A stretch of DNA of 23,195 nucleotides from IMG/VR virus record IMGVR_UViG_3300020465_000097, positions 1-23,195 of that record; one strand, written 5' to 3'. The stretch's first letter is position 1, and each line of letters opens with the position of its first letter. This DNA comes from a virus. The notes below the pieces were generated by a model. The model was given only the letters and a program-made list of their open reading frames with translations, was not told the origin of the DNA and did no database searches. The translations under genes were made by a program, and so were the position numbers. Of this stretch, positions 20,694 to 23,170 are shown in pieces.

Positions 20694-20781
20694 CACATCC
20701 CCAGATTCCATTAGAATATTCGCCATAATAGTATTGGCATTACTCTGGTTGATTATTTTTAACACTCCTACTAATGATTGA
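20680..20781 (+). CDS. 33-residue single-pass membrane miniprotein, unknown
   Basis: Begins at ATG 20680 (33 residues) or ATG 20686 (31 residues) and ends TGA 20779-20781. A short polar N-terminus (MIDTSPDS) leads to one hydrophobic helix (IRIFAIIVLALLWLIIF, about 17 residues), then a polar tail NTPTND. It overlaps the DUF3110 gene by 8-14 bases and the gp46 start by 8 bases, so it exactly fills the 80-base gap between them. Such tight fit and a clean transmembrane profile favour a real gene. No strong Shine-Dalgarno, so coupling to the upstream gene is likely. Confidence 0.62.
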   Translation: MTMIDTSPDSIRIFAIIVLALLWLIIFNTPTND

Positions 20782-22483
20782 GTTTCAACGAATTCGTTAT
20801 AAAAATTTCTTGGCAGCAGGTAACTATTTCACTGAGATAGAACTAAATGCTGAACCTAATACCTTGATCATTGGTGGCAATGGTTCAGGTAAGAGTACTT
20901 TATTGGATGCTTTGTGCTTTGCTCTGTTCAATAAACCATTCAGACAGGTCAATAGAAGTCAATTAGTTAATAGTACTAACGAAAGGGATGCAATAGTTGA
21001 GTTAGAGTTTGCTGTAAACGCCCATGAGTACAAAATTGTACGTGGAATTAAACCAAATAGGTTTGAAATCTTCAGAAATGGTAAGAAACTCAATGAAGAT
21101 TCGTCAGCACAGGAGCAACAGAAGACATTAGAAGGACAAATTTTAAAATTAAACTATAAATCGTTCACACAAATTGTAATTTTAGGTTCTGCATCGTTCG
21201 TTCCCTTCATGCAGTTGTCTACTGCACACCGTAGGGAGGTTATAGAGGACTTATTAGACATAAAAGTGTTCTCAAGTATGAAAGATATACTTAAGACACG
21301 TCTGAAGGCATCTAGAGACGAGTTAAAGGTGCTAGAATTAAAAAAACAATCGACTGCTGACAAGATTGTCATGCAGCAAAACTTTATTAGAACCATTGAG
21401 GAGGATTCTAACAATGATATCAATGAAAAACAGGAGCAAATCGAGAATATCTATAAAGATATCTCAAGGTATCAAGAATGTGTTGAGGATATCTTGGTTA
21501 AGGTTTCCTCAAAAGAAGATGAAGTAGAAAAGTATTCTGATGCAACGGATACCATTCGGAAACTTGAAACATTTCAGACTAAACTTCAGACTAAACGGCA
21601 CAACAGTTGCAAGGACTTGGATTTCTTTGAAGAAAACAGTAATTGTCCTACTTGTACCCAAGTTATTGATGAAGATTTTAGGTTAAATAAAACAGAACAA
21701 CTCCAGAAGTCTATATCAAAATCAGAAAAGAGCCTGTCTGAAATAAAACAGGCAATTTCTGATGAGCAATCACGGGAACGTGAGTTCTCAACACTTCAAA
21801 GGGAGATTACGAAACTAAACAATGAGGTTTCTCAAACCAACATTAGAATTTCTGAGTCCAATAAGTTACGAAGACAAATTGAACAAGAAATTCAAGCAAT
21901 TACCGACAAACTTGAAAATAGAAATACTGAAGATGAAAAGTTAACTAAGTTTAAACAGGATTTGAAGGGTGTATTGGATGATCTAGCAGATCTTACCAAG
22001 ACATATGAGTATGACAGTCAAGCAAACCTTCTACTTTCTGATGAAGGGGTAAAGAGAAACATTATTAAGAAGTATCTACCTTTAATCAACCAGCAAGCGA
22101 ACAGATACTTGCAGATGATGGACTTTTACATCAACTTTAACCTTGATGAAGAGTTCAAAGAGAAGATAGAGTCTCCTATCCATGAAAACTTCTCATATTC
22201 TTCCTTCTCTGAAGGAGAAAAGATGAGGATAGACCTTTCATTGATGTTTAGTTGGCGAGAAATTGCACGTATGAAGAATAGTGTTAGTACTAACCTACTG
22301 ATTATGGATGAAGTGTTCGATTCTTCCTTGGATGGGTTCGGTACTGACGAATTTATGAAGATCATTAGGTTTGTGGTCAAGGATGCTAACATATTTGTGA
22401 TCTCACACAAGAATGAACTGCATGATAAGTTCGAGAAATGTATTGAGTTCAAGAGAACTAAGGGGTTTTCACGAATAGCTTGA
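20774..22483 (+). CDS. 46: gp46 recombination nuclease subunit (Rad50/SbcC-like ATPase)
   Basis: ATPase partner of gp47; it clamps DNA ends and controls the nuclease. It has 569 residues (T4 560). Walker A GGNGSGKS at 34-41, then Q-loop region (about 132). Two coiled-coil arms (about 165-285 and 300-400) flank a zinc hook CPTC at 291-294. ABC signature FSEGEK is at 478-483, Walker B LLIMDEVFD at 508-516, and His switch ISHK at 543-546. All expected elements are present. It starts within the end of the membrane miniprotein frame and ends just at the downstream TTGACA promoter element. Confidence 0.96.
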   Translation: MIEFQRIRYKNFLAAGNYFTEIELNAEPNTLIIGGNGSGKSTLLDALCFALFNKPFRQVNRSQLVNSTNERDAIVELEFAVNAHEYKIVRGIKPNRFEIFRNGKKLNEDSSAQEQQKTLEGQILKLNYKSFTQIVILGSASFVPFMQLSTAHRREVIEDLLDIKVFSSMKDILKTRLKASRDELKVLELKKQSTADKIVMQQNFIRTIEEDSNNDINEKQEQIENIYKDISRYQECVEDILVKVSSKEDEVEKYSDATDTIRKLETFQTKLQTKRHNSCKDLDFFEENSNCPTCTQVIDEDFRLNKTEQLQKSISKSEKSLSEIKQAISDEQSREREFSTLQREITKLNNEVSQTNIRISESNKLRRQIEQEIQAITDKLENRNTEDEKLTKFKQDLKGVLDDLADLTKTYEYDSQANLLLSDEGVKRNIIKKYLPLINQQANRYLQMMDFYINFNLDEEFKEKIESPIHENFSYSSFSEGEKMRIDLSLMFSWREIARMKNSVSTNLLIMDEVFDSSLDGFGTDEFMKIIRFVVKDANIFVISHKNELHDKFEKCIEFKRTKGFSRIA

Positions 22484-22509
22484 CATATAACCAAACCTTA
22501 TGGTACTAT
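22480..22509 (+). promoter_or_regulatory. sigma70-type promoter after gp46
   Basis: TTGACA (22480-22485, overlapping the gp46 stop) with TACTAT (22504-22509) at 18 bases. The -35 is perfect, the -10 fair. It partly overlaps a late element, so the leader and the gene at 22632 may be transcribed both early and late. Confidence 0.6.
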
Positions 22510-22514
22510 AAATA
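22507..22514 (+). promoter_or_regulatory. Consensus T4 late promoter element after gp46
   Basis: TATAAATA is an exact late-element match, three bases of which overlap the putative -10 hexamer of the sigma70 promoter. The next ATG is 117 bases away, much farther than for the other late sites in the window. Confidence 0.6.
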
Positions 22515-22544
22515 AAGCATACAAAGGAATCGAAATAATCGTGC

Positions 22545-22603
22545 CCCTGCGTAGTATGTAAATCACCCCATGTCGGGGGTGGTATCATCCGTAGGGTTTT
22601 TTT
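22545..22603 (+). ncRNA. Structured leader: attenuator/terminator or small RNA
   Basis: An outer 7-bp stem (CCCTGCG 22545-22551 with CGTAGGG 22590-22596, one G-T pair) encloses an inner 8-bp hairpin (ATCACCCC 22562-22569 with GGGGTGGT 22576-22583, loop ATGTCG). The outer stem leads straight into seven T residues (22597-22603). Transcripts from the promoters at about 22480-22514 would give an RNA of about 80-90 bases ending here, or reading on into the gene at 22632. It may be an attenuator, the terminator of the gp46 unit, or an independent small RNA. No known RNA family is recognised; not tRNA-like. Confidence 0.5.
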
Positions 22604-22631
22604 AATGCCTTGCGAGATACTTTAAACAATC

Positions 22632-23006
22632 ATGTCTATCAAATCAACAATCGCAGCTGCTTTCGCTGCACCTTTCCTTCTATCTTCAGCTGCTTTTGCT
22701 GGTCCTTACGTGAACGTAGAGACTAACAGCAATTGGGATGGAGACAACTACACAGGAAACACAACTGATCTTCACATCGGTTTTGAAGGTTCTACAGAAG
22801 GTGGCGTTGGCTACTATGTTCAAGGTGGTCCTTCAGTAATCGCACTTGATGGTGTTGACTCTGAAACTCAGTTCTCTGGTAAAGCTGGTGGTTCTGCTAC
22901 CCTTACAGATACTGTTGGAGTATACGGTGAGCTTGCTTTCACTTCAGATGACGATGACCTAATCGCTGATTCTGCTGCTAAGATTGGTCTTACCTACAAG
23001 TTCTAG
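22632..23006 (+). CDS. Secreted beta-rich outer-membrane-like protein
   Basis: 124 residues. A clear signal peptide is visible: MSIKST, then hydrophobic AAAFAAPFLLSSAAFA, with cleavage expected after AFA (about residue 23). The mature chain of about 101 residues is built of alternating strands (GPYVNVETNS, DLHIGFEGS, GYYVQGGPSV, GSATLTDTVGVYGELAFTS, AAKIGLTYKF). It ends in Phe, as outer-membrane barrel proteins do for assembly. About six strands are too few for a usual closed porin barrel, so it may oligomerise, or be periplasmic or on the virion. It has its own promoters, leader and terminator, separate from the replication operon. Function unknown; altering the infected cell's surface is a guess. 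Confidence 0.8.
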   Translation: MSIKSTIAAAFAAPFLLSSAAFAGPYVNVETNSNWDGDNYTGNTTDLHIGFEGSTEGGVGYYVQGGPSVIALDGVDSETQFSGKAGGSATLTDTVGVYGELAFTSDDDDLIADSAAKIGLTYKF

Positions 23007-23040
23007 TTCTCTTAAATAGTTAAGAGTTCGAGATGGATCG

Positions 23041-23069
23041 AGACCTCTGCATTGCAGGGGTCTTTTTTT
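23041..23069 (+). terminator. Intrinsic terminator after the outer-membrane-like gene
   Basis: A 10-bp stem (AGACCTCTGC / GCAGGGGTCT, one G-T pair), loop ATT, then seven T residues. It lies 34 bases after the stop. It shares the left arm AGACCTC and the right arm with tail GGGGTCTTTTTTTATGC with the terminator after gp23. Confidence 0.92.
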
Positions 23070-23141: not shown

Positions 23142-23170
23142 TTGACAATGCTTAATGTTTCCTATATAAT
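23142..23170 (+). promoter_or_regulatory. Perfect-consensus sigma70 promoter at the right edge
   Basis: TTGACA (23142-23147), a 17-base spacer, and TATAAT (23165-23170): both hexamers and the spacing are ideal. Start expected about 23177, so it drives a gene beyond the window. It follows a terminator, marking a new early transcription unit. Confidence 0.88.

Follow-up and report, generated by a model that had tools for sequence, protein, structure and literature searches.

A covarying leader RNA of the cyanophage Phage_OMP gene, probably wired as a transcription attenuator in one phage clade

Introduction

Cyanophages rank among the most abundant marine viruses, and little is known of how their late genes are controlled. 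The systems closest to the leader described here are bacterial transcription attenuators and terminator-type riboswitch platforms, in which mutually exclusive helices share a strand and a terminator-like stem with a U run lies between promoter and gene. Our leader is alike in these respects but contains no known aptamer or leader peptide, precedes a phage gene, has a competing downstream helix (B) that encloses the U tract, and has a core that persists without the terminator in another clade. The ompA-type 5' UTR stabilisers of enterobacteria likewise place two hairpins before an outer-membrane protein gene; the likeness is one of description, and the cyanophage leader differs in being phage-specific and in being wired with a terminator in one of its clades. 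As in T4-type late promoters, the box TATAAATA stands upstream of a late gene at this locus, but a sigma70-like promoter overlaps it here and a structured leader follows. Structured 5' leaders are also found in cyanophage genomes as Rfam cis-regulatory RNAs (manA RF01745, wcaG RF01761, PhotoRC-II RF01717) and the glutamine riboswitch (PMC2864571, PMC9964418), from which the present leader differs in both gene and structure.

Structured leaders and attenuators are thus a known kind of element; what seems to be new is the RNA family itself, together with the gene it precedes and the two ways in which it is wired. A search of Rfam 15 returned no match at the element at either the gathering cut-off or a relaxed E-value. 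The search itself works, since it recovered a manA RNA elsewhere in two of the loci, both Synechococcus-phage contigs (L212 and L215, positions about 355-603), beside a tRNA gene and some 0.9-1.1 kb 5' of the OMP gene. The searchable papers, which were open-access articles other than preprints, yielded no account of the element. This compact RNA shows strong covariation and is tied to a single cyanophage-specific gene. That one core comes with a terminator in one clade of phages and with a Shine-Dalgarno sequence in another offers a natural experiment in the switching of leader RNAs between platforms. Direct tests are possible, since P-HM1, P-SSM2 and S-SSM4 are in culture.

The OMP gene and its promoter

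The window, by which we mean the whole 23,195-nt stretch of DNA analyzed, is part of the genome of a T4-like cyanophage; in the annotated phage collection it most closely matches Marine virus AG-345-D19 (97.7%). The leader region is flanked upstream by an SbcC-like/gp46 gene (20774-22483) and downstream by a plus-strand gene (22632-23006) encoding a 124-aa product of the Phage_OMP family (PF24653, phrog_417), which scores 147 bits against a gathering cut-off of 27. This family is annotated in cyanophage isolates as DUF680, T4-GC 241 or PhCOG173. A terminator-like hairpin followed by a T run lies 3' of the gene on the same strand (23040-23064), and together with the promoter upstream it makes the OMP gene a predicted self-contained unit. 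Beyond it, a perfect sigma70 consensus promoter (TTGACA, 17 nt, TATAAT; 23142-23170) points out of the right end of the window.

This is the kind of gene that needs control, being under strong selection when phages switch hosts: S-TIM4 passaged on Synechococcus WH8102 acquired 13 different mutations in its OMP gene, many of them expected to abolish expression (PMC6224464). An OMP-family protein was detected by LC-MS in S-SZBM1 virions, which is consistent with late expression (PMC9146016). P-SSM2 carries two adjacent OMP paralogues before pstS, and the RNA element stands only at the first, PSSM2_246. The OMP gene of Syn1, Syn1_209, is annotated as starting within a tRNA-Gly gene; its likely start is locus position 2010, 3' of the RNA element.

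The preliminary description of this DNA had proposed that a sigma70-type promoter and an exact late element overlap by three bases, and both are present. The -35 element TTGACA (22480-22485, plus strand) overlaps the gp46 stop codon TGA (22481-22483), and an 18-nt spacer separates it from the -10 element TACTAT (22504-22509), which is preceded by TG, for a 10/12 sigma70-type match. The T4-type late promoter box TATAAATA (22507-22514, plus strand) shares 3 nt with the -10 element, and the transcript is predicted to start near 22520-22522. By itself TATAAATA is not rare in the window (2 found, 2.4 expected from shuffles). In relatives, however, a NNTAAATA box stands 5' of the conserved core far more often than in the 6.4% of random 110-nt stretches that contain one: 64/68 leaders in the window's clade have it, and so do 61/83 in the other. 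Many relatives (such as L003, L006, L013 and L021) carry an inverted repeat, AACTG(T/G)CACA..TGTG(A/C)CAGTT, that directly precedes the late box and may be a terminator or the site of a regulator. A second conserved stretch, approximately GTGCCTCAATTACTCGC, lies 5' of the promoter in many Synechococcus-phage OMP leaders (L004, L034, L047, L086, L302, L342).

Competing helices in the leader

The leader of the window holds four helices on the plus strand, two of which compete with a third. The 5' hairpin P0 (22525-22548), recognized from the fold and from co-changes between its strands, consists of AGG..CCT enclosing CGA..TCG with an internal loop. It is followed by the hairpin P2 (22562-22583), formed by ATCACCCC, an ATGTCG loop and GGGGTGGT, in which the arms vary with compensating changes and the loop residues GTCG are conserved. 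A conserved CATC linker (22586-22589) leads from P2 to the switch strand CGTAGGG (22590-22596), which can pair either with the upstream arm CCCTGCG (22545-22551), giving helix P1, or with 22608-22614, giving hairpin B. B (22590-22614) is the universal 3' hairpin of the element and is directly followed by a conserved AG, the start of the tail AGATAC (22615-22620), which reads AGAYA or AGTAA in relatives. Immediately 3' of P1 and within the loop of B lies a terminator-like tract of seven U residues (22597-22603).

The 59-base two-stage hairpin ending in seven T residues that had been described earlier is indeed there, as P1 and P2 (22545-22596) followed by T7. The fold of 22540-22606 has an energy of -24.7 kcal/mol (z -2.7), and the GC-rich P1+P2 stem directly before U7 gives the region a terminator-like form. 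Two further helices, B and P0, emerged here, each of which shares bases with P1 and so excludes the terminator stem. P0 competes for C22546, C22547 and T22548, whereas B pairs the 3' strand of P1 and part of the U tract with the segment directly downstream, forming 8 pairs (22590-22597 with 22607-22614) in the minimum free energy fold of the full leader. When the leader is cut at the U run, it is predicted to fold as P1+P2 (-24.8 kcal/mol); at full length, the predicted fold is P0+P2+B (-30.1 kcal/mol).

A family of leaders tied to one gene

To place this leader in its family, we collected leaders from viral-contig OMP homologues (found with three OMP queries), from phage isolates, and from contigs matched by a leader-only DNA pattern; the clade counts given throughout omit the leaders fetched by DNA pattern (L089-L206). 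The canonical core, defined as P2 with a GUCG loop, the linker CAUC, B starting directly after CAUC, and AG right after B, is present in 302/332 leaders before Phage_OMP genes. Since the core finder requires CATC, the invariance of this linker is partly by construction; its conservation is evident in the unfiltered leader listings too. The window's form of the leader recurs in P-HM1, MED4-213 and P-SSM2, and a shorter form is found in Syn1, S-SSM4, P-RSM1, S-TIM4, S-RIM2 and S-PRM1. Podoviruses 9515-10a and KBS-P-1A, and ACG-2014f, have OMP genes without the core.

The tie to the OMP gene is close. In the gene-blind search by DNA pattern, 102 matches had sufficient sequence on their 3' side to be judged, and 101 of these stand 13-19 nt before an OMP gene. 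Covariance models of the element found a single strong copy in each T4-like cyanophage genome that bears the core, located at the OMP leader; those weaker matches that were inspected proved to be P0 alone or chance. The upstream neighbours belong to at least 28 families across 103 loci, which argues that the element belongs to the OMP gene and not to gp46. Taken with the single strong copy per genome and the gene's own promoter and terminator-like hairpin, this means that the element travels with the gene. An origin in host genomes was considered and rejected, as 150 additional host-family genomes gave no match. The R1 search of hosts returned nothing at all and so lacks a positive control. 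The sole host-genome match to both OMP gene and RNA element (L375) is a 189-kb single-cell-genome contig of Prochlorococcus sp. AG-418-C09, which is probably a co-sorted or infecting phage.

Covariation supports P2 and B

Compensating changes in the stems had been put forward as a check on the structure, and they are clear for P2 and for the newly found B. In the Synechococcus-phage set, both-sided changes occur in 10 of the 12 P2+B pairs, and the covariation score is 0.579, compared with 0.230 (sd 0.018) in shuffles, none of 500 reaching it, and a maximum of 0.205 for structures slid along the alignment. In the window's clade the P0+P2+B structure scores 0.261 against 0.134 (sd 0.011) in shuffles (again 0/500), a signal that comes chiefly from P2. 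The shuffles leave relatedness in and the slid structures retain it, and the two controls agree. With the two clades combined (81 sequences), B opens with a CG pair 42 times and with a UA pair 39 times. Alignment cells with G-U pairs outnumber those with A-C by 114 to 26, which indicates that the element acts as a plus-strand RNA. The strands of P0 also change together: GGACT occurs with TAACCC (91), GGCC with TACCC (19), and GGGCC with TACCCC (7).

P1 is where the check failed: pairing is kept, at 93% in the window's clade, but its changes are one-sided, through G-U, and no double compensations were found there. Exchanging arms between leaders makes little difference (-13.5 for own arms, -13.1 for swapped), so that there is almost no signal of coevolution. 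Support for P1 thus comes from conserved complementarity and from its co-occurrence with the U run.

One core, two wirings

The core is wired in two ways. Leaders of the window's clade, that of the Prochlorococcus phages, carry P1 and the U tract without a Shine-Dalgarno sequence, whereas those of the other clade have neither P1 nor U tract and usually have a Shine-Dalgarno sequence. Complementarity of the switch strand to the upstream CCCUGCG has a z of about -3.6 in the window's clade, compared with +0.5 in the other, and falls below -2 in 59/68 leaders of the former and 1/83 of the latter. A run of five or more U residues shows the same division (56/68 versus 1/83), and a Shine-Dalgarno sequence the reverse (0/68 versus 63/83). 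A few members, L056 and L090 among them, keep B without a U run. Internal changes in the shared strand within the window's clade (C to U, A to G) retain both pairings through G-U, as expected for a strand with two partners.

When cut at the U run, all 66 testable leaders of the window's clade are predicted to form P1. Extended to the AUG, 22 of the 66 fold with B and 43 with P1; termination could therefore be constitutive, given that P1 is still the predicted minimum in those 43. In neither clade is the start region paired, and we therefore see no sign of a direct gate on translation. Sequestration of the Shine-Dalgarno sequence was rejected on this ground, and because duplexes between upstream segments and that sequence are not above chance.

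Three further candidates were set aside. Attenuation by a leader peptide would rely on short frames at 22570 and 22606, which are not kept; on inspection, both the ATG and the frame change among the listed relatives. Pairing of UGUC in the P2 loop with GACA or GAUA in the tail is possible in the window's clade but was not adopted, since it could not form in the other clade with its AGUAA tails. A pairing of CUCG in P0 with CGAG after B is broken by GGAAUCG and GGCCCG variants.

Proposed mechanism and alternatives

We propose, with a probability of roughly 60%, that the element is a cis-acting structured 5' leader of the cyanophage Phage_OMP gene, wired in the window's clade as a transcription attenuator. 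The sequence features and their conservation, the covariation of P2 and B, the mutual exclusivity of the helices and the linkage to the gene are observed; from them we infer the transcript ends, termination in vivo, and a regulator with its direction of action. The leader probably sets the amount of OMP that is made. Transcription would begin just 3' of the overlapping sigma70/late promoter, and P0 and P2 would fold first. With the polymerase at 22596-22603, CGUAGGG may pair with CCCUGCG to form P1, displacing P0; as a GC-rich stem before U7, P1 would then cause partial termination after about 84 nt. Polymerases that read through would go on to make the 3' arm of B, which may recapture the shared strand, restore P0 and leave the start region open. 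Anything that holds P0 would raise read-through, and we favour a protein that recognizes this hairpin, since P0-type hairpins recur in other cyanophage 5' regions. The preliminary description had wavered between a gate on the outer-membrane-like gene and a discrete small RNA, and the evidence now favours the gate: the element is tied to the gene, its structure is maintained by compensating changes, and its terminator-like and alternative helices are mutually exclusive.

Several other readings deserve weight. The leader may instead be a 5' stabiliser or processing element, in which P2 and B shield an abundant late mRNA at its 5' end or serve as a site for an RNase or a protein, with P1 and the U tract secondary. 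We consider this unlikely, though by a smaller measure than what follows: the persistence of the core in a clade without P1 or U run, the always open start region, and the protein in S-SZBM1 virions, consistent with late expression (PMC9146016), all fit, but it leaves unexplained why P1 and the U tract co-occur in one clade, and why 59/68 leaders retain a second strand with complementarity to the switch strand. Conserved unpaired residues (the GUCG loop, CAUC and the AG tail) could also form the pocket of a metabolite-binding riboswitch whose expression platform differs between clades. One core with two wirings and a single controlled gene would suit such a riboswitch, yet the element is confined to phages and to one gene family with no metabolic theme, it matches no Rfam riboswitch, and two short hairpins are small for an aptamer; we regard this as improbable.

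More improbable still, and to a similar degree, are two readings that detach the structure from OMP control. A promoter of its own and a terminator-like end would give a discrete RNA of about 85 nt, which might act in trans as a phage small RNA with OMP expression incidental. The element was recovered only in front of the OMP gene, however, with no copies found apart from it, and the other clade has no terminator. The CCCC-containing stem had been suggested to open and pair with other RNAs, a suggestion that finds no support: few parts of the leader vary more (89 distinct P2 5' arms among 205 leaders), unlike a seed. Likewise, P1, P2 and U7 are terminator-like and would stop read-through from gp46, so that they might serve as a plain terminator insulating the OMP unit from its upstream gene. 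Such a terminator would nevertheless sit downstream of the unit's own promoter and share a strand with the universal hairpin B, and the upstream genes vary among loci over the 28 families noted above, which also led us to reject a role as a terminator of gp46 only.

P0-type hairpins elsewhere in cyanophage genomes

Hairpins of the P0 type are found beyond the OMP leader. They occur alone before high-light-inducible (hli) genes and an OMP-like gene in podovirus-like contigs, and before a 38-aa frame (L376). This recurrence in other cyanophage 5' regions leads us to suggest that P0 may bind a common factor. More broadly, and only tentatively, we raise the doubtful but conceivable case of a cyanophage-wide RNA code, in which the P0-type hairpin (GG-NN-YGA..UCR-UR-CC) would be the site for one phage or host factor controlling OMP through the three-way P0/P1/B attenuator, phrog_8866 through enclosure of its start codon, and hli genes in podovirus-like contigs.

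In the loci L283:1033, L386:7729, L402:1462, L411, L415, L422 and L424, a stem-extended P0 hairpin (GGCGGCCCGAAACAATCGTACCCGCC) stands alone in the 5' regions of high-light-inducible genes and of one OMP-like gene without the P2-B core. In phrog_8866, a second gene with a late promoter, the start codon lies inside a P0-type hairpin (L591-L595, L479-L485 and others); the window has no such case. This hairpin takes the form GGA-GU-UGA..UCA-UG-UCC (53) or GGG-AU-UGA..UCA-UG-CCC (40), the two being perfectly compensating, and a TAAATA box lies no more than 60 nt upstream in 80 of 99.
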